Assembly: GCF_013213975.1 (NCBI RefSeq)
Contig: NZ_JABSST010000004.1
Span: 1-64,000 of the forward strand
DNA from: Winogradskyella sp.
GTDB lineage: Bacteria > Bacteroidota > Bacteroidia > Flavobacteriales > Flavobacteriaceae
DNA length: 64,000 nt
Reading direction: 5' to 3'
Within the stretch, counting starts at the first letter, position 1. The number at the start of each line of letters is the position of its first letter. The translations under genes and the position numbers were made by a program. The notes under the pieces are model-generated. The model was given only the letters and a program-made list of their open reading frames with translations. It did not search any database and was not told the DNA's origin. Positions 8,632-24,108 of this stretch are shown here, piece after piece.

Positions 8632-8661
8632 ATGACAACAATGATTACCATGATTCCCTGA
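8632..8661 (+). CDS. thrL: thr operon leader peptide (MTTMITMIP)
   Basis: A nine-codon reading frame, ATG to TGA, encodes M-T-T-M-I-T-M-I-P. Five of nine residues are Thr or Ile, the end products of the pathway encoded by the flanking thr and ilv genes. It is followed at once by a sequence able to form an antiterminator and then by an intrinsic terminator. This is the architecture of ribosome-mediated attenuation as known for enterobacterial thrL. The frame is too short for the ORF track. The upstream sequence is A-rich with no clear Shine-Dalgarno, as is usual in this phylum. Confidence 0.8.
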   Translation: MTTMITMIP

Positions 8662-8662
8662 C

Positions 8663-8724
8663 GGAAGGTGATATTGTTATACCCATATATTAAACCTTCC
8701 TAAAATTTTTAGGAAGGTTTTTTT
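8663..8724 (+). terminator. thr attenuator: antiterminator strand plus intrinsic terminator
   Basis: AAACCTTCCTAAA and TTTAGGAAGGTTT (8692-8720) form a perfect terminator stem, and the T tract runs to 8724. Immediately after the leader-peptide stop, GGAAGGT (8663-8669) is exactly complementary to ACCTTCC (8694-8700), the 5' arm of that stem. A ribosome stalled on Thr/Ile codons would leave GGAAGGT free to pair and block termination. A ribosome reaching the stop would cover GGAAGGT and let the terminator form. Confidence 0.88.
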
Positions 8725-12135: not shown

Positions 12136-13430
12136 AGTATTTTAGTTTAAATCATGACGCGCCTGAAGTATCATTTCAAGAGGCTGTAATAAAAGGATTG
12201 GCACCAGATAAAGGCCTTTATTTCCCTAAGTCAATTAATCAACTTCCTAAGTCGTTTTTTGATAACATTGAGTCCTTAGATGATGTCTCTATAGCTTATG
12301 AAGCTATTAAACAATTTGTTGGTGATGAAATTCCACAAACAGATTTAAAAGACATATTAGAAGATGTTCTAAGTTTTGACTTTCCTGTTGTAGAACTTAA
12401 TGATTCCATATCGGCTTTAGAATTATACCATGGGCCAACCATGGCATTTAAGGATGTAGGAGCTCGATTTATGGCAAGATGTCTAGGTTATTTTAATGGG
12501 CAAAAAGAGACGAAAGAGAATGTAACAGTATTAGTAGCTACTTCAGGTGATACAGGTGGTGCAGTGGCGAGTGGATTTTTAGGCGTAAATGGTGTTGAGG
12601 TTGTTATCCTTTATCCAAGTGGTAAAGTAAGTGACATACAAGAAAAGCAATTAACTACCCTTGGTCAAAATATTACCGCCTTAGAAGTCGAGGGTGTTTT
12701 TGACGACTGTCAGGCTATGGTAAAGCGTGCTTTTTTAGACAAGGATTTTCATAATAAGCGAAAGTTAACATCAGCTAATTCTATAAATATAGCAAGGTGG
12801 CTTCCTCAAATGTTTTACTACTTTTTTGCTTATAAGGCTTTAAAACATAAGGGTAAGGATTTGGTGTTTTCTGTACCTAGCGGTAATTACGGGAATATTT
12901 GTGCAGGTATGATGGCTCAAAAACTAGGGCTACCAATCCAACATTTTGTTACGGGCACGAATGCAAATGATGTGATACCACAATATTTAAAAACAGGTAA
13001 TTACACTACTAAATCATCTGTTGCTACAATTTCAAATGCTATGGATGTTGGTGCACCTAGTAACTTTATTCGTATTAAAGAATTACATGACGGCAGTTTT
13101 GAGTTATTAAAAAAGAATTTATCCGGTTATAGTTATTCTGATGTTGAAACTCTAGAAGCGATCAATTATTTAAAAGAGCGTAGTGATTATGTAGCAGATC
13201 CACATGGTGCCATTGGTTATTTGGCATTAAAGGATTATTTAGCAGGAAACCGCAATGTTCAAGGTGTCTTTTTAGAAACAGCCCATCCCATCAAGTTTTT
13301 ACCTGTTATGCCAAATTCTATTGCAGATAAATTAGAAATACCAACTCAAATAAAATCAATTTTGTATCTTAAAAAGCGCAGCATTCAAATACATGACTAT
13401 GAACAGCTAAAGGACTATTTGCTCCCTTAA
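12132..13430 (+). CDS. thrC: Threonine synthase
   Basis: A 432-residue fold-type II PLP enzyme that converts O-phosphohomoserine to threonine. The PLP lysine lies in [14 protein letters not shown] (near residue 110), and the following [14 protein letters not shown] is the cofactor and substrate loop. The length fits the shorter bacterial form. The start overlaps the thrB stop by 4 bp. It completes thrABC downstream of the attenuator. Confidence 0.95.
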
Positions 13431-13441
13431 AAGAACTTTTT

Positions 13442-15028
13442 ATGAAACACAATTGTATCCCTCAACAATTTCAAATCAACGAACTGATTCATCAATCGAC
13501 GTATTTACTTAATGGCGAATTAATAGAGTGGAGTGGTGAAACAACAGATATATATTCGACAATTTCTTCAACAGAAGATTACAAACCAACCTTATTAGGA
13601 AGTATTCCTACTTTAACAGAAACGGAGGCGTTACAAGCCTTAGATGCGGCTTCTGAAGCCTATGGGAAAGGACAAGGATTATGGCCAACTATGAAAGTTT
13701 TAGATCGTGTAGAATGTATGTTAAAGTTCGTTGAACAGATGAAAACCAAGCGCGAAGAAGTTGTAAAATTATTAATGTGGGAAATTGGTAAAAATTTACC
13801 AGATTCTCAAAAAGAATTTGATAGAACAGTCCAATATATTTACGACACTATTGAAGATTATAAGCAGTTAGATCGGGATAGCGCGAAGTTTCATAAGCAA
13901 AGTGGTGTCCATGCACATATAAGACGCGGTCCGCTAGGAGTAGTATTGTGTTTGGGGCCTTATAATTATCCTTTAAACGAAACCTTTGCACTTTTAATTC
14001 CCGCTTTAATAATGGGAAATACAACGATATTTAAACCTGCAAAATTCGGGGTATTATTATTATCACCACTTTTAGAGGCGTTTCAAAATAGCTTCCCCAA
14101 AGGTGTGGTTAATATTCTTTACGGCAGAGGCAGAACTGTTGCTACTCCAATAATGAAGGATGGCAGAGTTGATGTTTTGGCTTTGATTGGTAATAGTAAG
14201 TCTGCAAACGCATTGCAAGATCATCACCCAAAAAGTAACAGGCTAAGGATGGTTCTAGGATTAGAAGCTAAAAATCCTGCTATTGTTTTAAAGGATGCGG
14301 ATTTGGATTTAGCTATAGCTGAGTGTATTGCAGGAACAACCTCTTTTAATGGACAACGTTGTACGGCATTAAAAGTATTATATGTCCACGAGGATGTTGT
14401 TGATGAATTTAACAGGCGATTCTCAAATGCTGTTGACGCTTTGAAATTTGGTAATCCTTGGGATAAGGATGTTAAACTGACTCCGTTACCAGAGCCAGAT
14501 AAACCTGTTTATATTCAAGAATTAATTGATGATGCTAAGATAAAGGGTGCAAGTATATTAAATTCTAGAGGTGGTGAAACCACTGATAATTATATATTCC
14601 CGGCTATCTTATATCCTGTGACTAAGGATATGCGCGTATATGAAGAAGAGCAATTTGGTCCCGTAATACCCGTAATTCCTTTCTCTAAAATCGGCGAGCC
14701 TTTAGATGATATGGCTGCTTCTAATTATGGGCAACAAGTTAGTTTGTTTGGGAAAGACACTAGAACATTAGCGCCATTAATTGATACTTTAGTTAATTTG
14801 GTTTGTAGAGTAAATCTTAATAGTTCATGCCAAAGAGGCCCTGATGTTTATCCATTTACTGGACGTAAGGATTCAGCAGTAGCAACTTTGAGTGTTCATG
14901 ATGCGCTTCGTTCTTTTTCAATTAGAACGTTTGTAGCTTCGAAAGACAACGATTATAATAATGCGATTTTAAAGGAACTACTTGATTCTAACGCTTCAAA
15001 TTTTGTAAGTACTGATTACTTATTGTAG
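13442..15028 (+). CDS. NADP-dependent glyceraldehyde-3-phosphate dehydrogenase-like aldehyde dehydrogenase (GapN type)
   Basis: A 528-residue aldehyde dehydrogenase. [33 protein letters not shown] is the cofactor-binding region. [17 protein letters not shown] contains the general-base glutamate, and [11 protein letters not shown] carries the catalytic cysteine in the NGQRCTALK context typical of non-phosphorylating GapN enzymes. GapN oxidises glyceraldehyde-3-phosphate to 3-phosphoglycerate and yields NADPH. It begins 11 bp after thrC and precedes a strong terminator, so it appears to be the last gene of the thr operon. It could supply NADPH for threonine synthesis; that link is inference. 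Confidence 0.82.
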
Positions 15029-15039
15029 TTAATTAGTTA

Positions 15040-15077
15040 GATATTCATAAAATAGCTTTGGTTATTTTATGAATATC
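15040..15077 (+). terminator. Terminator of the thr operon
   Basis: GATATTCATAAAAT and ATTTTATGAATATC form a perfect 14-bp inverted repeat around a 10-nt loop, followed by ATAATAATTTTTA. It lies 11 bp after the gapN-like stop and separates the thr operon from the arg leader. Confidence 0.75.
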
Positions 15078-15129
15078 ATAATAATTTTTAATTGTAAATT
15101 AATTAGGAAGTCCGTTAAAAATATATTTC

Positions 15130-15303
15130 TACCTTTACACCCAGAATTAAACCATAAAAGCAGATAGCTTGTTAGTATTAACCTTCATATTTATTTTTAG
15201 CACTGTTGTTCTTCGCAATAACAGCAGAAGGTTACGTCCTATTTTCCGTCGCCCGTAAGGGTATGTATTTATTTTGGAACCTAGGTGAGTCCGGTTCCCT
15301 TTT
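15130..15303 (+). promoter_or_regulatory. Structured attenuator-like leader of the arginine operon
   Basis: A -7-like TACCTTTA at 15130-15137 would start a roughly 200-nt leader. Its segments can pair in alternative ways. AACCTTC (15180-15186) pairs with GAAGGTT (15227-15233), enclosing the stem CTGTTGTT/AATAACAG (15203-15210 / 15217-15224). AGGTT (15229-15233) can instead pair with AACCT (15278-15282). GGAACC (15276-15281) pairs with GGTTCC (15293-15298), followed by CTTTTC, a terminator-like stem. TTACG/CGTAA (15232-15236 / 15254-15258) is a further option. This 1:2, 2:3, 3:4 layout resembles an attenuator or riboswitch. The region is visibly less AT-rich than its surroundings. Confidence 0.6.
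15169..15258 (+). CDS. Candidate Arg-rich leader peptide (TTG start)
   Basis: A 29-codon frame from TTG (15169) to TAA (15256-15258) lies inside the arg leader. Its last 14 codons contain six arginines (CGC, AGA, AGG, CGT, CGT, CGC), ending R-R-L-R-P-I-F-R-R-P. Six arginines just before a terminator-like hairpin and an arginine operon is what an arg leader peptide would look like. Weaknesses: there is no ATG, the N-terminal half is plain hydrophobic sequence, and the Arg codons overlap the pairing strands rather than sitting upstream of them. Confidence 0.35.
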   Translation: MLVLTFIFIFSTVVLRNNSRRLRPIFRRP

Positions 15304-15346
15304 CAAAACATTTCAAAACACATTTTAACACTAAAACACAATTGCA

Positions 15347-15970
15347 ATGAAAATTGTTATTGCTGATAAGTCACATACGGTATATGCAGATATAATTTGC
15401 AAAACCATTGAAGATGCTGCGCAAGTAAGAGGTACTGGTATTGCTAAGCGCCAGCCAACATATATCATATCTAAAATTGAAAATGGGAATGCTGTGATAG
15501 CACTAAAAGACAACAAATTTGCCGGTTTCTGTTATATCGAATCGTGGAGTCATGGAAAGTTTGTAGCCAATTCAGGATTAATTGTTCATCCTGATTTTAG
15601 AAATCAAGGTTTAGCTAAGCAAATTAAGACTGTCATTTTTGAACATTCAAGGACTAAATTTCCTAACGCCAAAGTCTTTAGTATAACTACAGGATTAGCA
15701 GTAATGAAGATGAATAGTAATTTGGGTTATAAGCCTGTTACTTTCTCTGAGCTTACTGATGATCAATCATTTTGGAATGGTTGCCAGACTTGCAAAAATT
15801 ACGATGTACTTCAACGTACTGAGCAAAAGATGTGTCTGTGTACAGGAATGTTGTACGATCCAAGCAAGAAAAAAGGTAAAGAAAGTTCAAATCATAAATA
15901 TGATAAAAAAGTATGGACGAGATTAAAAAGCATCAAGCAATCTCGATTCCTTAAAAAGGATAAGACATGA
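15347..15970 (+). CDS. GNAT-family N-acyltransferase heading the arg operon (probable N-acylglutamate synthase role)
   Basis: A 207-residue GNAT protein with the acyl-CoA motif HPDFRNQGLA near residues 81-90. The stop overlaps the argG start by 4 bp (ATGA). The cluster has no argA or argJ, yet contains argB, argC, argD and argE, so this protein is the likely source of N-acylglutamate (inference from context). A C-terminal cysteine cluster is seen: CQTC (146-149) and CLC (163-165), then a Lys-rich tail. The cysteines could bind a metal. The acyl donor (acetyl- or succinyl-CoA) cannot be told from sequence. Confidence 0.7.
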   Translation: MKIVIADKSHTVYADIICKTIEDAAQVRGTGIAKRQPTYIISKIENGNAVIALKDNKFAGFCYIESWSHGKFVANSGLIVHPDFRNQGLAKQIKTVIFEHSRTKFPNAKVFSITTGLAVMKMNSNLGYKPVTFSELTDDQSFWNGCQTCKNYDVLQRTEQKMCLCTGMLYDPSKKKGKESSNHKYDKKVWTRLKSIKQSRFLKKDKT

Positions 15971-17148
15971 AAAATAGATTAGTTATAGCCTATAGTGGTG
16001 GATTAGACACCTCTTATTGTGCATTGAGTTTGAGTAAAGCTGGTTATGATGTGCATGCTGTTAGTGTTAATACAGGAGGTTTTACAAAAGAAGAAATCAA
16101 AAGCATTGAAACTAATGCCTATAAAATGGGTGTATCTACCTACAAGAATATAGACGCCATTAGTTCATATTATAATAAGGTAATTAAACACCTCATTTAT
16201 GGTAATGTTCTCAAAAACAATACCTATCCATTATCCGTGAGTGCAGAACGAATAATTCAAGCCATTGAAATTGTAAAATATGCGAATGACATTGATGCTA
16301 AATTTATAGCTCATGGCAGTACTGGAGCTGGGAATGATCAAGTAAGGTTTGATATGATTTTCCAAACTTTAGCGCCAGATATTGAAATTATAACACCAAT
16401 AAGAGATGGTAAATTAAGCAGACAGGAAGAGATTGATTATCTCAAAGCAAATGGTGTTGATTTGCAATGGGAAAAGGCTAAGTACTCCGTTAATCAAGGG
16501 CTTTGGGGAACCAGTGTTGGAGGAGAAGAAACGCTAACTTCTAAAAATCCTTTACCTGAGTATGCATATCCATCTCAATTAGAAAACTACGAAACACAAA
16601 ATATTGAGCTTCATTTTAAAGAAGGTGAATTGGTTGGAGTTGATGAATTTAAGTCTGAACCTCAGCATTGTATAGCGTATTTAAATAAAGTGGCTTCCAA
16701 ATTTGCCATTGGTAGAGATATTCATGTTGGTGATACCATTGTTGGGATTAAAGGACGTGTAGGTTTTGAAGCAGCTGCAGCTTTAATTACTATTAAAGCG
16801 CATCATTTATTAGAAAAGCATACCCTAACAAAATGGCAACTACAGCATAAGGAGTACTTATCTAGTTTTTATGGAATGCATTTGCATGAAGGACAATATT
16901 TAGATCCTGTTATGCGAGATATAGAAGCTTTCCTAAAGAACAGTCAATCCAAGGTTTCTGGAAGTGTTTTTGTTTCCTTAAAGGCGTATCATTTTTCCTT
17001 GGATGGTATAGCCTCACCTAATGATTTAATGAATGCCAAATTTGGAAGTTATGGTGAAGACAATAAAGGCTGGACCGCAGATGAGGTCAAAGGATTTATC
17101 AAAATTAATGGTAATCAAAATAGAATCTATCACCACGTAAATTCATAG
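15967..17148 (+). CDS. argG: Argininosuccinate synthase
   Basis: A 393-residue PP-loop ligase that joins citrulline and aspartate with ATP. The nucleotide loop is YSGGLDTSYCAL at residues 9-20. Family motifs HGSTGAGNDQVRFD and WGTSVGGEE are present. The start overlaps the GNAT stop, and argC starts 2 bp after its stop. It is the penultimate enzyme of arginine synthesis, with ArgH encoded at the end of the same operon. Confidence 0.95.
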   Translation: MKNRLVIAYSGGLDTSYCALSLSKAGYDVHAVSVNTGGFTKEEIKSIETNAYKMGVSTYKNIDAISSYYNKVIKHLIYGNVLKNNTYPLSVSAERIIQAIEIVKYANDIDAKFIAHGSTGAGNDQVRFDMIFQTLAPDIEIITPIRDGKLSRQEEIDYLKANGVDLQWEKAKYSVNQGLWGTSVGGEETLTSKNPLPEYAYPSQLENYETQNIELHFKEGELVGVDEFKSEPQHCIAYLNKVASKFAIGRDIHVGDTIVGIKGRVGFEAAAALITIKAHHLLEKHTLTKWQLQHKEYLSSFYGMHLHEGQYLDPVMRDIEAFLKNSQSKVSGSVFVSLKAYHFSLDGIASPNDLMNAKFGSYGEDNKGWTADEVKGFIKINGNQNRIYHHVNS

Positions 17149-17150
17149 TA

Positions 17151-18128
17151 ATGATAAAGGTAGGAATTATAGGAGGAGCAGGATATACCGCTGGAGAATT
17201 GATCAGACTTTTGTTAAATCATAATCAGGTTTCAATTGATTTCGTTTTTAGCACATCTAATGCTGGTAATAAAGTTTCTAAAGTGCATCAGGATTTGATT
17301 GGATCAACTGAAATTGGTTTTACTAGCGAAATTAATTCGAATGTAGATGTTCTCTTTTTGTGCTTGGGTCACGGAAATTCCAAAGCATTTTTAGAGCAAA
17401 ATAGCTTTTCTGGTCATACTAAAGTCATTGATTTAAGTAATGATTTTAGACTGGAGCCTAGCCAGACATTTGAGAATAAATCCTTTGTTTATGGTTTACC
17501 AGAATTTCAAAAAGAGCGAATTAAAACCTCAAATTTTGTGGCAAACCCTGGGTGTTTTGCTACAGCTATTCAATTGGCAGTTTTACCGCTCGCCAATGCT
17601 GAGTTATTAACCAATGATATTCATATTAATGCAGTTACTGGTGCAACAGGCGCAGGAACTTCTTTGTCTAAAACAACACATTTTACATGGCGCGACAATA
17701 ACTTTTCCTATTACAAGCCTTTTACACATCAACATTTGGGTGAAATAGAACAAACCATAAATGGGCTTCAAAATAGCTTTCAGTCTAACGTACATTTTAT
17801 TCCTAATCGCGGTAATTTTTCAAGAGGCATTTTTGCAACGGTATATACAGATTATGAAGGTACAATAGATGATGCTACCCAGTTGTATCAAGACTATTAT
17901 AAGGATGCAGCCTTTACTTTTATTTCAGAAGAGGCAGTGCATTTAAAACAGGTAGTGAATACTAACAAGTGTATCATTCATTTACATAAGCATAATGAAA
18001 AGCTATTAATCACAAGTATAATAGATAACCTACTAAAAGGAGCTTCAGGTCAAGCTGTACAGAATATGAACTTGATGCTTGGATTTAATGAAACTGAAGG
18101 ATTAAACCTAAAAGCCAACTTCTTCTAA
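17151..18128 (+). CDS. argC: N-acyl-gamma-glutamyl-phosphate reductase
   Basis: A 325-residue NADPH-dependent reductase of the ASADH fold. The N-terminal dinucleotide motif is VGIIGGAGYTAGELIRLL. The catalytic cysteine lies in NPGCFATAIQLA (near residue 132). GATGAGTS and HQHLGEIEQ are also conserved. It reduces acylglutamyl phosphate to the semialdehyde. It sits between argG and proC with 2-bp and 11-bp gaps. Confidence 0.94.
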   Translation: MIKVGIIGGAGYTAGELIRLLLNHNQVSIDFVFSTSNAGNKVSKVHQDLIGSTEIGFTSEINSNVDVLFLCLGHGNSKAFLEQNSFSGHTKVIDLSNDFRLEPSQTFENKSFVYGLPEFQKERIKTSNFVANPGCFATAIQLAVLPLANAELLTNDIHINAVTGATGAGTSLSKTTHFTWRDNNFSYYKPFTHQHLGEIEQTINGLQNSFQSNVHFIPNRGNFSRGIFATVYTDYEGTIDDATQLYQDYYKDAAFTFISEEAVHLKQVVNTNKCIIHLHKHNEKLLITSIIDNLLKGASGQAVQNMNLMLGFNETEGLNLKANFF

Positions 18129-18139
18129 AACCATAGATT

Positions 18140-18940
18140 ATGAAAATTGCAATTATAGGAACAGGAAACTTAGGAAAATCTATAGCAAAAGGCTTGATAA
18201 CTACCGACGCTATAACCTCACTTTATCTTACCAAAAGAAATTTGAGTGATATACAAAGTTTTAAAGGGTATAAAAATGTCTTTTTAACTTCAGACAATAT
18301 AGAGGCCGTTAAGCATTCAGATATTTTAATTTTTGCTGTTCAACCTGCTCATTTTGAAGAAATTCTTCAAACGATAAATCCGTATTTAACGGAGAAGCAT
18401 GTTTTAATATCCACAATAACCGGATTTACCATTTCAAAAATTGAAGCTGAGGTTGGTGAGCAGAATTTTATTATCAGAGCTATGCCAAATACGGCTATTG
18501 CAGTTGGTAAATCCATGACCTGTTTATGTGCTAATGCAAATGGTGAAAAGCGCATTAAAATAGCGGCGGCTATTTTTAACAGACTTGGGCACTCATTGAC
18601 TATTCCAGAATCACAAATGCAAGCCGCAACGGTTGTTTGCGCAAGTGGTATTGCCTTTTGGATGCGTTTGATTAGAGCCACAACACAAGCGGCGATTCAG
18701 CTTGGTTTTGATGCCAAGGAAGCCCAAGAATTGGCGATGCACACGAGTGAAGGAGCTGCTAACTTATTAATTACAACTGGGAATCATCCTGAAGAAGAGA
18801 TTGATAAAGTTACAACACCAATGGGTTGCACCATTGAAGGTTTGAATGAGATGGAACACAAGGGCTTGAGCTCTTCCTTAATTCAAGGTATGGTAACATC
18901 ATTCAAAAAGATTAATACAATAAAAGAAGAACAGATATGA
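18140..18940 (+). CDS. proC: Pyrroline-5-carboxylate reductase
   Basis: A 266-residue NAD(P)H-dependent reductase that makes proline from pyrroline-5-carboxylate. The Rossmann motif is IAIIGTGNLGKSIAKGL. RAMPNTAIAVGKS and the C-terminal TTPMGCTIEGLNEME match ProC. Its stop overlaps argD by 4 bp. A proline enzyme inside an arg operon suggests shared supply from glutamate or ornithine-derived semialdehyde. No proA or proB is seen in the window. Confidence 0.9.
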   Translation: MKIAIIGTGNLGKSIAKGLITTDAITSLYLTKRNLSDIQSFKGYKNVFLTSDNIEAVKHSDILIFAVQPAHFEEILQTINPYLTEKHVLISTITGFTISKIEAEVGEQNFIIRAMPNTAIAVGKSMTCLCANANGEKRIKIAAAIFNRLGHSLTIPESQMQAATVVCASGIAFWMRLIRATTQAAIQLGFDAKEAQELAMHTSEGAANLLITTGNHPEEEIDKVTTPMGCTIEGLNEMEHKGLSSSLIQGMVTSFKKINTIKEEQI

Positions 18941-20064
18941 GTTTATTTAATGTATATCCGTTGTATGATGTAACTCCAGTTAAGGCCAAAGATGTCTATA
19001 TATATGACGACCAGGGACAATCGTATCTCGATCTTTATGGCGGTCATGCGGTTATTTCTATCGGGCATTCACATCCAAAATATGTCACTGCCATTACTAA
19101 TCAATTGGAACAATTAGGGTTTTACAGTAATTCTATAGTTAATCCTTTGCAGATAGAATTAGCTAATAAACTGAAAGTCGTTTCAGGATGTAATGACTAT
19201 GAATTATTTTTATGTAATTCTGGTGCAGAAGCTAATGAGAATGCATTGAAATTAGCGTCATTCCATACGCAAAAGTCAAAAGTTTTAGCGTTTAAAAATG
19301 GATTCCATGGTAGAACATCGGCAGCAGTTGCAGCAACGGATAACAGAAAAATTATATCTCCTTTGAATGCACAACAAAAGGTTGATTTCGTCGACCTAGG
19401 AGATTTAGAATCTGTAGAAGCTATCCTTAAACAGAACCAAACTTGTGCTATAATAGTTGAATGTATTCAAGGCGTTGGTGGATTAGATCAGAGTACTACA
19501 GCATTTTATCAAGGTTTAGAGCAATTATGTAAGACTTACAACACTTTATTAATTGCAGACGAAGTGCAATCTGGTTTTGGTAGAACTGGTGAATTCTTCG
19601 CCTTTCAAAAGCACAAGATCACTCCAGACATCATCTCAATAGCTAAAGGCATGGGTAATGGATTCCCTGTTGGCGGTATATTGATTTACTCTGAGATAAA
19701 AGCGTCATTCGGATTATTGGGAACAACTTTTGGAGGGAATCATTTAGCCTGTGCTGCAACTTTATCAGTATTGGAGGTTTTAGACCAACAACAATTAATG
19801 AATAATGCCACAGATATATCTGAATATTTTATGGAGCAGGCTAAGAAGCTTCCAAAACTTAAAGCTATAAAAGGGAGAGGTTTAATGTTAGGCTTAGAGT
19901 TCGATTTTCCGATTTCTGAATTACGAAAAACGCTCATTTTTAAACATCACATTTTTACAGGGAGCTCGAAGAACCCAAACCTTATTCGAATTTTACCGCC
20001 CTTAACGGTAAAGAAAAGCCATATAGATATGCTTATTGAAGCATTGCATTCAGAATTAAAATAA
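18937..20064 (+). CDS. argD: Acylornithine aminotransferase
   Basis: A 375-residue class III PLP aminotransferase that turns acylglutamate semialdehyde into acylornithine. Visible are YLDLYGGHAVISIGHSHP near the N-terminus, NSGAEANENALKLA, the PLP aspartate region ADEVQSGFGRTGEFFAF, and the PLP lysine in SIAKGMGNGFPVGG. The length matches ArgD (about 375-400 aa). It is coupled to proC by overlap and followed 1 bp later by argF'. Confidence 0.93.
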   Translation: MSLFNVYPLYDVTPVKAKDVYIYDDQGQSYLDLYGGHAVISIGHSHPKYVTAITNQLEQLGFYSNSIVNPLQIELANKLKVVSGCNDYELFLCNSGAEANENALKLASFHTQKSKVLAFKNGFHGRTSAAVAATDNRKIISPLNAQQKVDFVDLGDLESVEAILKQNQTCAIIVECIQGVGGLDQSTTAFYQGLEQLCKTYNTLLIADEVQSGFGRTGEFFAFQKHKITPDIISIAKGMGNGFPVGGILIYSEIKASFGLLGTTFGGNHLACAATLSVLEVLDQQQLMNNATDISEYFMEQAKKLPKLKAIKGRGLMLGLEFDFPISELRKTLIFKHHIFTGSSKNPNLIRILPPLTVKKSHIDMLIEALHSELK

Positions 20065-20065
20065 T

Positions 20066-21001
20066 ATGAAACATTATACATCTATTTACGATATAGAAAA
20101 TCTACAGCAATGTATTGCTGACGCTAAGGCTCTTAAAAAAGATCCCTATGCTTTTGATGATTTAGGAAAGCATAAAACTTTGGTCATGCTCTTTTTCAAT
20201 TCAAGTTTGAGAACACGTTTAAGTACAGAAAAAGCAGCAAAGCATTTAGGTATGGATGTCATGGTTTTAAACATTGACAATGCCTGGAATTTAGAATTTG
20301 AAGATGGCACAATTATGAATCTCGATACTTCTGAACATATTAAAGAGGCAGCACAAGTGATCTCACAGTATGCAGACATTATTGCGGTCAGAGCATTCCC
20401 AACGTTGAAGGATAAGGACAAAGATGAATCTGAGCTTATACTCAGTAGTTTTAAATCTTATGCCACAGTTCCTATTGTAAATATGGAAAGTTCAACAGCA
20501 CATCCATTACAGGCATTAGCAGATGCCATTACAATTTCTGAATTAACTGAAGTTAAGAAACCTAAAGTTGTGCTCTCTTGGGCACCACATCCCAAAGCCT
20601 TACCACAGGCTGTAGCAAATTCATTTGTAAAGATGATGCAACAACTAGATATAGAGTTTGAAATTACGCATCCAGAAGGGTATGAGCTAAACCCTGAAAT
20701 TGTTAAGGATAGTAAAGTGAACTACAATCAAAACGAAGCTTTAAAGCATGCCGATTTTGTATATGTCAAGAATTGGAGCAGTTACAGCGATTATGGGAAG
20801 ATACTGACTGAAGATGCTGATTGGATGATGACTAAAGCTAAGTTAGGAGATGCCAAGTTTATGCACTGTTTGCCAGTAAGACGAAATGTTGTGGTAGAAG
20901 ATGCCGTTTTAGATAGTGCACAATCTGTGGTTATTGAGCAAGCTAACAATAGAACATATGCTGCGCAGATTGTATTAAAAAATATTTTAGAGAACCTTTA
21001 A
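20066..21001 (+). CDS. argF': N-acylornithine carbamoyltransferase (ArgF' type)
   Basis: A 311-residue transcarbamylase. FNSSLRTRLSTEKA is the carbamoyl-phosphate loop, seen in acetyl-/succinyl-ornithine transcarbamylases rather than the STRT of ordinary OTC. SWAPHPKALPQAV and HCLPVRRN are also typical of this group. Such enzymes carbamoylate acylated ornithine, so ArgE would act afterwards on acylcitrulline. At the position I align with the published specificity residue (Pro in the Bacteroides fragilis succinyl enzyme, Glu in the Xanthomonas acetyl enzyme) this protein has Ser89 (LDTSEHIKEA). The acyl group therefore remains open. Confidence 0.88.
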   Translation: MKHYTSIYDIENLQQCIADAKALKKDPYAFDDLGKHKTLVMLFFNSSLRTRLSTEKAAKHLGMDVMVLNIDNAWNLEFEDGTIMNLDTSEHIKEAAQVISQYADIIAVRAFPTLKDKDKDESELILSSFKSYATVPIVNMESSTAHPLQALADAITISELTEVKKPKVVLSWAPHPKALPQAVANSFVKMMQQLDIEFEITHPEGYELNPEIVKDSKVNYNQNEALKHADFVYVKNWSSYSDYGKILTEDADWMMTKAKLGDAKFMHCLPVRRNVVVEDAVLDSAQSVVIEQANNRTYAAQIVLKNILENL

Positions 21002-21002
21002 A

Positions 21003-21779
21003 ATGCAAACACTAAAAATCATAAAAATAGGTGGGAACATCATTGACGATCAAAAAGCATTATCTGACTTTTTAAAACAATTGGCAACACTAGAAGGTCC
21101 TAAAATTCTAGTACACGGTGGAGGTAAGTTGGCTTCCAAAATGACAGAGCGGTTAGAAGTGCCAGTTAAAATGCATAATGGCAGACGTATTACAGATGCA
21201 GAAACCCTAGATATTGTAACAATGGTGTACGCAGGAAAAATAAATAAAACAATCGTAGCACAGTTACAAGCCAATCAATGTAATGCTATTGGATTAACCG
21301 GATCTGATGGTAATACTATTATTACTGAAAAAAGAGCAATCAATCAGATAGATTTTGGGTTTGTTGGAGATGTTAAGGCTGTGAATACGGATAGTCTAGA
21401 CTTACTAATAGATAACAAAATTACCCCTGTTTTTTGCGCTATAACTCATGATAAAAAAGGACAACTACTTAATACCAATGCAGACACAATTGCTTCTGAA
21501 TTAGCCATTGCATTTTCCAAAAATTTCAGAACGGAATTGTATTACTGTTTTGAAAAAAATGGCGTTTTAAAGGACGTTTCAGATAATGATTCTGTAATTG
21601 AAACTATAGATGCTAAGTACTATCAAAAACTAATTGAAGAGCATATAATAGCTGATGGCATGTTGCCTAAGCTCACCAATTGTTTTAATGCTATTGAAAA
21701 AAATGTGAGTAAGGTTTGTGTTGGCAAGCCTAGTATGCTATTTCAATCAGATTCAATTTATACAACACTTATAAAATGA
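21003..21779 (+). CDS. argB: N-acylglutamate kinase
   Basis: A 258-residue amino acid kinase. KIIKIGGNIIDD (N-terminal phosphate loop) and ILVHGGGKLASKM are the family motifs, and VNTDSLDLLI with NTNADTIASELAIAF lies in the ATP half. It phosphorylates acylglutamate, usually the feedback-controlled step. It lacks a long N-terminal helix like that of arginine-inhibited hexameric NAGKs, so strong arginine inhibition is less expected; this is inference. Overlaps argE by 4 bp. Confidence 0.92.
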   Translation: MQTLKIIKIGGNIIDDQKALSDFLKQLATLEGPKILVHGGGKLASKMTERLEVPVKMHNGRRITDAETLDIVTMVYAGKINKTIVAQLQANQCNAIGLTGSDGNTIITEKRAINQIDFGFVGDVKAVNTDSLDLLIDNKITPVFCAITHDKKGQLLNTNADTIASELAIAFSKNFRTELYYCFEKNGVLKDVSDNDSVIETIDAKYYQKLIEEHIIADGMLPKLTNCFNAIEKNVSKVCVGKPSMLFQSDSIYTTLIK

Positions 21780-22837
21780 TAAAGACATTAACCAAAGATG
21801 CTATTGCCTTATTGAAGCAATTAATTGAGACTCCATCGTTTTCATCACAAGAAGGTGATACAGCGGTATTGATTGAGCAGTGGTTTATAAATCATAAGAT
21901 TCCATTTAAAAGGCAAGCACATAACGTTTGGACTTTCAATAAATACTTCGATGACAGTAAACCGACACTTCTTTTAAATTCCCATCATGACACGGTTAAA
22001 CCAAACAACGGTTATACTAAAGATCCGTTTCAAGCTATAGTAGAAGGGGATAAATTATATGGCTTAGGAAGTAATGATGCTGGAGGATGTTTGGTGTCGC
22101 TACTAGCAACTTTTACATATTTCTATGAAAATAGAAACCTCAACTATAATCTTGTTATTGTGGCTTCAGCAGAAGAGGAAAGTAGTGGTCCAAATGGATT
22201 AAACAGTATGTTACCTGTGATTCCAAAAATTGATGTTGCCATTGTTGGTGAACCGACCTTAATGCAGCTTGCTGTTGCAGAAAAGGGCTTGGTGGTTTTT
22301 GACGCCAAAGTAAAAGGTACTGCAAGTCATGCAGCACATCCAAATGACGATAATGCCATTTATAATACCATCGATGTATTAAAGTGGTTTCAAGAGTTTA
22401 AGTTCGATAAAAAGTCACTTGTTCTTGGAGATGTTAAAATGACTGTCACTCAAATCAATGCTGGCAAACAGCATAATGCCGTACCGTCAGAGGTTGATTT
22501 GGTTGTTGATGTTCGTGTTAATGATAGGTATAGTAATGCCGAGATTGCTGAGATACTTAAGCAGAAGTCTCCTTGTACTAGCATTGAAGCGCGAAGTTTG
22601 AGATTAAATTCATCGGCAATTCCGATTCATCATGAGTTGGTGAAAGCTGGAATAAAATTAGGTAGAGAGACTTATGGGTCACCTACCTTGTCCGATCAAG
22701 CCGTATTAAGCTGTCCATCTCTGAAATTAGGTCCAGGTGATAGCACACGTTCTCATACAGCAGACGAGTATATTTATATATCGGAAATTGAAGAAGGTAT
22801 AGATATCTATATAAAAATGTTAAATCAGGTATTATGA
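21776..22837 (+). CDS. argE: M20-family deacylase, probable N-acylcitrulline/acylornithine deacetylase
   Basis: A 353-residue zinc peptidase of the M20 family. Metal-site motifs seen: LLNSHHDTV near residue 65, GSNDAGGC near 100, and ASAEEESSGPNG near 127. The dimerisation domain lies in the middle (residues 165-270). In an ArgF' pathway it should remove the acyl group from acylcitrulline. It is coupled to argB and argH by 4-bp overlaps. Confidence 0.88.
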   Translation: MIKTLTKDAIALLKQLIETPSFSSQEGDTAVLIEQWFINHKIPFKRQAHNVWTFNKYFDDSKPTLLLNSHHDTVKPNNGYTKDPFQAIVEGDKLYGLGSNDAGGCLVSLLATFTYFYENRNLNYNLVIVASAEEESSGPNGLNSMLPVIPKIDVAIVGEPTLMQLAVAEKGLVVFDAKVKGTASHAAHPNDDNAIYNTIDVLKWFQEFKFDKKSLVLGDVKMTVTQINAGKQHNAVPSEVDLVVDVRVNDRYSNAEIAEILKQKSPCTSIEARSLRLNSSAIPIHHELVKAGIKLGRETYGSPTLSDQAVLSCPSLKLGPGDSTRSHTADEYIYISEIEEGIDIYIKMLNQVL

Positions 22838-24108
22838 AACTCTGGGAAAAAGGATTTACAATCGATAGAAAAATAGAACAATTTACTGTTGGCAATGATA
22901 GGGAAATTGATCTGCATATCGCCAAATATGATGTACAAGCATCTTTGGCACATGCTGTTATGTTAGAGTCTATAGGAATTTTAAACTCTAAAGAACTCGA
23001 ACAATTGAAAAATGGCTTAGAAGGAATTTCAAATGCAATCGAAAACGGTGAATTTATAATAGAAGACACCTTTGAGGATGTGCATTCTAAAATCGAATAC
23101 GAACTCACAAAAACTTTGGGAGATGTTGGTAAAAAAATTCACACAGCACGTTCCAGAAACGATCAAGTTTTAGTGGCTTTACAGTTGTATTATAAAAATA
23201 GTTTAAAGGAGATTAATAAAAGAGTCAAAGAGCTATTTGATACACTATTAAACTTGGCGGCTACACATAAAGATGCAGTATTGCCTGGCTATACGCACTT
23301 ACAAGTTGCCATGCCATCGTCTTTTGGACTTTGGTTTTCTTCTTATGCTGAACTTTTGATTGATGATGTGCATGTATTAAATGCCGTTGAAAAAATTGTA
23401 GATCAAAATCCCTTAGGATCGGCAGCAGGATATGGAAGTTCATTCCCAATTGATAGAAATTTAACCACTAAAGAACTTCAATTTTCAACCTTAAAGTATA
23501 ATGTTGTCGCAGCACAATTAAGTCGAGGAAAAAGTGAACGATCTATCGCTAGCGCTTTAGGTGGTTTAGCAAACACTCTGGCGCGTTTTGCAATGGATAT
23601 TTGCTTGTATATGAGCCAGAATTTTGGGTTTATTAGTTTTCCAGACGAACTCACAACAGGAAGTAGTATTATGCCACATAAGAAGAATCCTGATGTCTTT
23701 GAATTGATTAGAGGAAAATGCAATAAGATTCAAGCTTTACATACTGAAATGCTACTCATTACCAACAATTTACCTAGTGGTTACCATAGAGATTTTCAAT
23801 TGCTTAAAGAGCATATGATTAGTGCCTTTGAAGACCTTAAGAACATTTTGGATATTTTTAATTATGCAATTCAACAAATCATAGTTAAGGATGTAGACTT
23901 AACAGATGAAAAATATAAATATCTTTTTACTGTTGACAGTATTAATAACCTTGTGGTAGAAGGCATGTCCTTTAGACAGGCTTATCAAGAGATTGGTAGC
24001 CAAGTACAAAACGATACTTATAAGCCAGATTTAGGTAAACCACATACACATATTGGCAGTATGGGTAATTTATGTTTAGATGAAATACGAGCTAAGTATC
24101 CAAAATAA
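22834..24108 (+). CDS. argH: Argininosuccinate lyase
   Basis: A 424-residue member of the fumarase/aspartase superfamily that splits argininosuccinate into arginine and fumarate. The superfamily signature is TGSSIMPHKKNPDVFELIRGK near residue 275. HTARSRNDQV and PGYTHLQVAMPSS carry other active-site residues. At 424 aa it is somewhat shorter than typical ArgH (about 450-460). It is the last gene of the arg operon and is followed at once by a terminator. Confidence 0.94.
   Translation: MKLWEKGFTIDRKIEQFTVGNDREIDLHIAKYDVQASLAHAVMLESIGILNSKELEQLKNGLEGISNAIENGEFIIEDTFEDVHSKIEYELTKTLGDVGKKIHTARSRNDQVLVALQLYYKNSLKEINKRVKELFDTLLNLAATHKDAVLPGYTHLQVAMPSSFGLWFSSYAELLIDDVHVLNAVEKIVDQNPLGSAAGYGSSFPIDRNLTTKELQFSTLKYNVVAAQLSRGKSERSIASALGGLANTLARFAMDICLYMSQNFGFISFPDELTTGSSIMPHKKNPDVFELIRGKCNKIQALHTEMLLITNNLPSGYHRDFQLLKEHMISAFEDLKNILDIFNYAIQQIIVKDVDLTDEKYKYLFTVDSINNLVVEGMSFRQAYQEIGSQVQNDTYKPDLGKPHTHIGSMGNLCLDEIRAKYPK

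Follow-up and report, generated by a model that had tools for sequence, protein, structure and literature searches.

A predicted arginine-codon leader with conserved hairpins, and without a recognizable terminator, upstream of the arginine operon of Winogradskyella and other Flavobacteriaceae

A short arginine-rich reading frame ahead of the arginine operon of Winogradskyella sp. is, judging by its conservation among relatives, a genuine coding leader ORF whose start is often not AUG. We read the region as a ribosome-mediated arginine leader because the frame is coding, its Arg codons are kept, two hairpins (A and C) bear the marks of selection, and the whole lies directly before GNAT-argG; the absence of ArgR matches, the lack of a U-tract, a rut-like composition downstream and an excess of Arg-rich leaders across the class lend further support. 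That the leader senses arginine codons and that its state is read by something other than an intrinsic terminator is, taken jointly, fairly likely. The window is the whole stretch of DNA analysed, 64,000 nucleotides of NCBI RefSeq assembly GCF_013213975.1 (contig NZ_JABSST010000004.1, positions 1 to 64,000 of the forward strand).

The arginine operon and its upstream region

We inspected the gap between a dehydrogenase gene (ending at 15028) and a GNAT gene (starting at 15347) directly in the sequence. Its features, and the genes that follow, are:

15130 to 15137, + strand: likely promoter -7 box TACCTTTA, TAnnTTTG-like, from the sequence
15169 to 15258, + strand: leader ORF uORF2 of 29 codons, (M)LVLTFIFIFSTVVLRNNSRRLRPIFRRP, from a predicted TTG start to a TAA stop; relatives keep frame 0 open, and the TTG is aligned in loci L002 and L004
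15179 to 15234, + strand: enclosing stem UAACCUUC/GAAGGUUA around hairpin A, strands 1 and 2 of the preliminary description, by eye and in the nearest relatives only
15203 to 15224, + strand: hairpin A, CUGUUGUU/AAUAACAG, within uORF2 and ahead of its main Arg codons; cognate halves pair better (67/75)
15250 to 15263, + strand: hairpin B, CGCCC-GUAA-GGGU(A), with the UAA stop in its loop, overlapping the last Arg and Pro codons; nearly invariant
15276 to 15298, + strand: hairpin C, GGAACC-UA-GG-UGAGU-CC-GGUUCC, with a conserved U-G-N-G-U pentaloop (85/90) and compensatory changes
15303 to 15346, + strand: unstructured run with C but little G, reaching to the GNAT start and rut-like in composition by its C/G ratio
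15347 to 15970, + strand: GNAT-family acetyltransferase (PF00583), gene 1 of the arginine operon
15967 to 24108, + strand: the presumed regulated operon behind GNAT, in the order argG, argC, proC, argD, N-acyl-ornithine carbamoyltransferase, argB, argE-like deacylase, argH, by best NCBIfam matches

The operon gene names are those of the best NCBIfam matches, several of which score under the curated cut-off. The GNAT protein, whose C-terminal part is Cys-rich (CQTC...CLCTG), may be the pathway's acyl-glutamate synthase; no curated family gives it a name. At the other end of the gap, a 24-nt inverted repeat at 15031-15086, 3' of the dehydrogenase gene, probably marks the end of the thr transcription unit. 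A search with the Pfam model of the arginine repressor ArgR matched 0 of 60 genomes of the family; the control search was positive in 9 of 14 control genomes, including Bacteroides ihuae and E. coli.

Boxes of the TAnnTTTG type lie at -12 to -5 in a Flavobacterium, according to the part of PMC9723704 used here, and from the box in the window we predict that transcription probably starts at about 15142. Given TACCTTTA at 15130 as a likely promoter box, 15130-15138 is probably untranscribed and would be unavailable for a long stem. We therefore rejected a long fold of 15119-15138 with 15254-15275, which also lies outside the set of conserved pairings.

A coding arginine-rich leader ORF, often without AUG

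For comparison, we searched with the GNAT protein and took the upstream stretch of the best match from each of 80 named loci, mostly Winogradskyella, Lacinutrix, Psychroserpens, Polaribacter, Tenacibaculum and Gelidibacter, and of 130 of 199 further genomes of the family; the nearest named relative is Winogradskyella tangerina, with 90% GNAT identity. In the resulting 211 upstream rows the window appears both as win and as L001, and some genomes occur in both collections. The hairpin C motif GGTGNGTCC is present in 188 of them, although the 23 rows without the strict motif count against our preferred reading. A set of 154 non-redundant leaders was formed from rows below 85% identity, minus those 23 and four more without CGCCY.

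Across these 154 relatives, codons 3-26 of the Arg frame contain six stops, compared with 243 and 252 in the other two frames. A start codon stands exactly 31 codons ahead of the stop in 62 leaders (30 TTG, 16 GTG and 16 ATG), and most of the remainder start at other lengths. Over the last 12 positions, 626 of the 1,848 codons encode Arg, and CGT and CGC replace one another. The preliminary description had noted six Arg codons among the final 14 before a TAA and no ATG, both of which are present in the window, and it had offered a non-AUG arginine leader peptide as one of two models; the coding frame, the fixed place of the start and the synonymous Arg codons in the 154 leaders strongly support that model. 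In the window itself, we assign the TTG as the predicted start of uORF2.

The stop follows immediately after RP codons in 127 of the 154 leaders, and in the window the frame ends ...RRP-TAA. In the other 27 there is no stop after RP and the frame would run on towards C, which counts against the preferred reading. The peptide outside its RRP end differs by clade. TnaC, an arrest peptide that senses tryptophan, has a Pro before its stop, and the Pro-stop end seen here recalls it. A nascent ...RRP peptide that senses free arginine or ornithine within the ribosome, as TnaC does its ligand, would explain why the stop so often comes straight after RRP; however, the stop is not universal, hairpin B (CGCCC) also dictates the Arg-Pro codons, the residues upstream of RRP vary widely across clades, and there is no sign of peptide-specific arrest. 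Such an arrest peptide is improbable; what the arg leader has in common with TnaC and SpeFL (PMC8429421) is a short leader peptide.

Hairpins A and C are conserved by compensatory change

The preliminary description proposed four pairing strands, and these exist: AACCTTC/GAAGGTT (in fact 8 nt, 15179-15186 with 15227-15234), AGGTT/AACCT and GGAACC/GGTTCC (15276-15281 with 15293-15298). The window leader alone folds only modestly better than shuffles (z of about -1.6), so the strands by themselves are unconvincing and comparison had to decide. When strands were swapped between species, the cognate combination was better for C in 130 of 133 cases and for A in 67 of 75, and two control windows gave no signal in the same test. 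Mutual information likewise ranked pairs in C and A highest; we set aside many other high-scoring pairs as clade effects. From these comparisons we conclude that hairpins A and C are selected. Hairpin B is nearly invariant and so offers no covariation.

In hairpin C, a stem and a short bulge lead to a GG/CC clamp that closes the loop UGNGU, which reads TGNGT in 85 of 90 aligned relatives. In a model-fitted alignment of 90 relatives, which is biased towards the model, 94.7% of the cells of the B+C structure are paired, as are 97.5% and 99.4% in the two helices of C. The alignment was built from the window and 91 of the 100 family loci L112-L211 (90 of the 92 matched), leaving out L114, L130, L137, L188, L191, L205, L206, L207 and L211. 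Both sides of a pair have changed in 106 cells across B+C, compared with 27 (sd 4.1) in shuffles of these 90 relatives, and sliding the partners abolishes the compensatory signal.

By eye, the enclosing stem AACCTTC/GAAGGTT is clade-specific, found in L002 and in weaker form in L004 and L073. The second of the original models, an aptamer-like RNA in which this stem encloses the structure and controls termination, is not supported, since the stem is clade-specific and the terminator is absent. An arginine-binding riboswitch formed by hairpin C and its neighbours is a separate proposal, favored by the conserved pentaloop and bulge and by the restriction of the motif to the arg operon in its own genome. 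We consider it very improbable, because the same RNA retains a coding Arg-rich ORF, C is small, and the bulge is not kept in other Bacteroidia. Neither the window's leader nor those of 20 relatives matched a family in Rfam 15, in agreement with the earlier remark that the element resembles no named RNA family; at a low threshold the best hit, an OppA thermometer whose 17.5 bits fall far below the gathering score of 290, was dismissed as chance. We also dropped two ideas about the C loop, that it might serve as an anti-Shine-Dalgarno complement or as a TAR-like arginine site.

No terminator and no competing structure

Hairpin C had been described as a terminator-like stem, and the four strands as a 1:2, 2:3, 3:4 layout. 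Neither description held up. Only CTTTTCAA follows the C stem in the window, and at least five T occur in the 8 nt after C in 22 of 184 loci; across 15029-15400 no terminator-like site was found. Although C is conserved, AGGTT/AACCT and the other upstream partners of C do not coevolve with it (cognate above the non-cognate mean in 36/75 and 42/75). The formation of C has a median of 0.46 in the full leader versus 0.85-0.89 in truncated ones, but shuffling the upstream RNA does not weaken the competition (mean formation of C 0.41 with shuffled versus 0.49 with real upstream RNA, in 70 of the 184 loci), and the real leader is no stronger a competitor. Pairing of C with the uORF2 start or with the Arg codons was rejected, as shuffled upstream RNA lowered the formation of C as much or more and species swaps showed no preference. 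No mutually exclusive structures were found in the arg leader, which also counts against the preferred reading. We further considered hairpin B as a terminator acting through the U-rich spacer behind it, and rejected this because, by eye, the U-run is missing in groups such as L145, L154 and L155.

Since C has neither a U-tract nor a coevolving competitor, attenuation by an intrinsic terminator is not supported. Of the parts of a classical attenuator, the leader has an Arg-rich ORF that appears to be translated and has neither the intrinsic terminator nor the exclusive antiterminator pairing. The window also holds a thr leader (8632-8724), which offers a ready comparison. Like the arg leader, it places a short ORF with regulatory codons ahead of a biosynthetic operon; unlike the arg leader, it has an ATG start (peptide MTTMITMIP-stop, before thrA), a strong terminator with a T-run (AACCTTCC...GGAAGGTTTTTTT) and, upstream, the complementary antiterminator strand GGAAGGT. 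Its presence argues that the lack of a terminator is particular to the arg leader. That the arg leader is nonetheless a classical attenuator of strands 1:2, 2:3 and 3:4 with its terminator at C would agree with the GC-containing C stem (-9.3 kcal/mol), with the CTTTTC that comes after it in the window, and with the anatomy of the thr leader, by which the latter appears to work in this way. Whole groups of loci have no T-run after C at all, however, and the conserved loop of C is unneeded in a terminator; together with the failure of the real upstream RNA to outcompete shuffled RNA, this leaves the classical scheme quite unlikely.

A second arginine ORF in many relatives

In 85 of the 154 rows, a further ATG ORF of 15-26 codons with an Arg-codon end, uORF1, lies upstream of uORF2; an example is MFNTINKNERPTSLPMRRRRR in L006 (L006:2203-2268). 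The rule applied (ATG, 15-26 codons, at least two Arg in the last eight, right distance) likely admits a few chance matches, such as L158 and L185. By frame, codons 2-18 contain 2, 105 and 127 stops. The uORF1 ATG comes 4 nt after a TAnnTTTG-like box in 60 of the 85, and with boxes at -12 to -5, as given in the part of PMC9723704 used here, it would be the +1 position and the ORF leaderless.

The 5' codons of uORF1 pair with the U-rich run just before uORF2, at -10.3 kcal/mol for cognate partners versus -7.3 kcal/mol for species-swapped ones; the cognate duplex is stronger than the swapped in 66 of 70 cases and than the shuffled in 74 of 78. Leaders with uORF1 start uORF2 with TTG or GTG in 67 cases and ATG in 18, compared with 14 and 44, and 11 unassigned, in those without it (Fisher p 7e-11, kinship not corrected for). 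Pairing of a uORF with a downstream ribosome-binding region also occurs in E. coli toiL, which, according to the part of PMC12121999 cited here, differs from the arg leader in sensing antibiotics and in having a single uORF.

The window and L002, L004 and L073 have no uORF1 and keep a TTG or GTG start, and from their sequences they look like reduced forms. The absence of uORF1 from the window counts against the preferred reading.

Distribution across the family, order and class

A covariance model of B+C matched 24 of 246 genomes of the order at E 0.01. Sixteen matches are strong, and all of these are in the family of the window and directly before GNAT-argG; the eight weak matches in other families of the order (E 0.001-0.009) were discarded, none being near arg genes. 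The genome of the window has a single strong match, before the arg operon, and the next has E 0.38. The preliminary description held that its proposal would fall if neither the stems nor the Arg-rich frame were conserved in close relatives; in fact the Arg frame and hairpins A and C are kept. It did not mention hairpin B at the stop codon, the pentaloop of C, the tandem uORF1 of relatives or the occurrence across Bacteroidia. One large genus of the family (g128) counts against the preferred reading, as the covariance model matches nothing in it and the three loci read from it, L241, L242 and L284, have no Arg leader.

Across the class, an ATG Arg-rich ORF lies ahead of 40 of 67 GNAT loci, compared with 8 of 67 on the opposite strand. 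A U-N-N-G-Y pentaloop hairpin is present in 17 of the 67, where block shuffles lead one to expect 1.0 and seven other loop patterns give 0 to 4; ORF and hairpin occur in that order in 11. These class counts are exploratory, because the loop type and hairpin rule were picked after examples had been seen, and three of the 67 loci (L241, L242 and L284) are from the window's own family. The class hairpins mostly have a CC/GG clamp rather than GG/CC and read mostly CC-UNYGY-GG, often bulge-free.

Other observations were made in passing. Upstream of GNAT in L241-L307, some Bacteroidia Arg leaders end in FFxRR-stop or PRA/PRI-stop rather than RRP-stop, forming several clade-specific peptide families. 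Loci L003, L008, L017, L025 and L083 carry an extra TTCCTG...CAGGAA-like hairpin, possibly a dispersed repeat, between C and the GNAT start, mostly followed by TCTC. The sole other strong UNNGY-loop hairpin in the window, at 12438 on the minus strand, is antisense within a gene and probably due to chance.

A model for arginine sensing and its readout

That the leader senses arginine through its codons is, from the sequence comparisons, probable, and if it does, a non-intrinsic readout is just as probable; given both, the chances for and against Rho as that readout are about even. We infer Arg-tRNA sensing, the direction of the response and a part for Rho from sequence. In the model that we favor, a ribosome would translate uORF2 (15169-15258), whose Arg codons are packed at its end. 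When charged Arg-tRNA is scarce it would stall on the last of these, beside B and about 24 nt ahead of C, keeping B open and leaving C free; when arginine is plentiful it would reach the stop codon in B and then leave. The position of the ribosome, read via B, C and the G-poor run, would set the expression level of the arg operon. The free RNA behind C (15299-15346) would permit early termination, likeliest Rho-dependent, from which a stalled ribosome would protect the transcript.

The C/G ratio of the G-poor run, which is a matter of composition only, is 2.79 over 188 loci, whereas 18 further upstream regions in the window give 1.02. Such a run would suit Rho and proves nothing, and it may simply be an A-rich initiation region. 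The readout could also be translation or stability of the GNAT mRNA. That the leader acts there, at the ribosome-binding region or an RNase site, instead of on transcription would agree with the lack of a terminator and has a parallel in the E. coli toiL sensing uORF, which masks a start region while Rho acts further downstream (PMC12121999). C lies about 48 nt ahead of the GNAT start, however, with no conserved pairing to the start region found, and sensing of Arg codons does not by itself discriminate between these platforms; we regard control of this kind as unlikely. The main weak point of the ribosome-mediated model is the conserved loop of C, whose role it does not account for.

More tentatively, and with more doubt than confidence, we suggest a new class of arginine-control RNA that would stand in ArgR's place in Flavobacteriaceae and extend through Bacteroidia. 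In this class the leader peptide would be followed, 10-30 nt on, by a UNNGY hairpin serving not as a terminator but as a recognition element, read either by a dedicated trans-acting factor or by the machinery of transcription or translation. The fuller form would be a two-stage relay from uORF1 to uORF2, in which a leaderless, ATG-started uORF1 with Arg codons would pair through its own codons with the U-rich run before a TTG- or GTG-started Arg ORF, uORF2, such that translation of uORF1 would gate translation of uORF2; the window would hold a reduced form, with the first stage gone and the weak start kept.

Relation to known leaders and significance

In the openly licensed literature searched, no comparable arginine leader turned up for Bacteroidetes. 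Among described systems, the cys leader peptides of mycobacteria and other actinobacteria, for which Rho is proposed by the authors, share with the arg leader a run of regulatory codons near the stop and the lack of a conserved terminator; they differ in amino acid and phylum and, as far as the cited part of PMC1262725 goes, have no conserved hairpins, whereas the arg leader has two that coevolve and a conserved loop. Within the same bacterial family, PMC9723704 describes in general terms how leader peptides attenuate amino-acid operons in Flavobacterium psychrophilum, so that the general idea is shared; its main text, in the part cited, mentions neither an arginine leader nor a tandem ORF or UNNGY hairpin, and its supplement may list an arginine case. 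Leader-like small ORFs have also been described in Bacteroides, with arginine not mentioned in the part of PMC7366714 cited here.

The arg leader departs from the textbook plan in having no intrinsic terminator or alternative strands and often a non-AUG start, and further in the two serial Arg ORFs and coevolving helix of many relatives and in a hairpin loop kept across the class. With ArgR matched in 0 of 60 genomes, it is the obvious candidate for arginine control in the widespread Flavobacteriaceae that lack this regulator.
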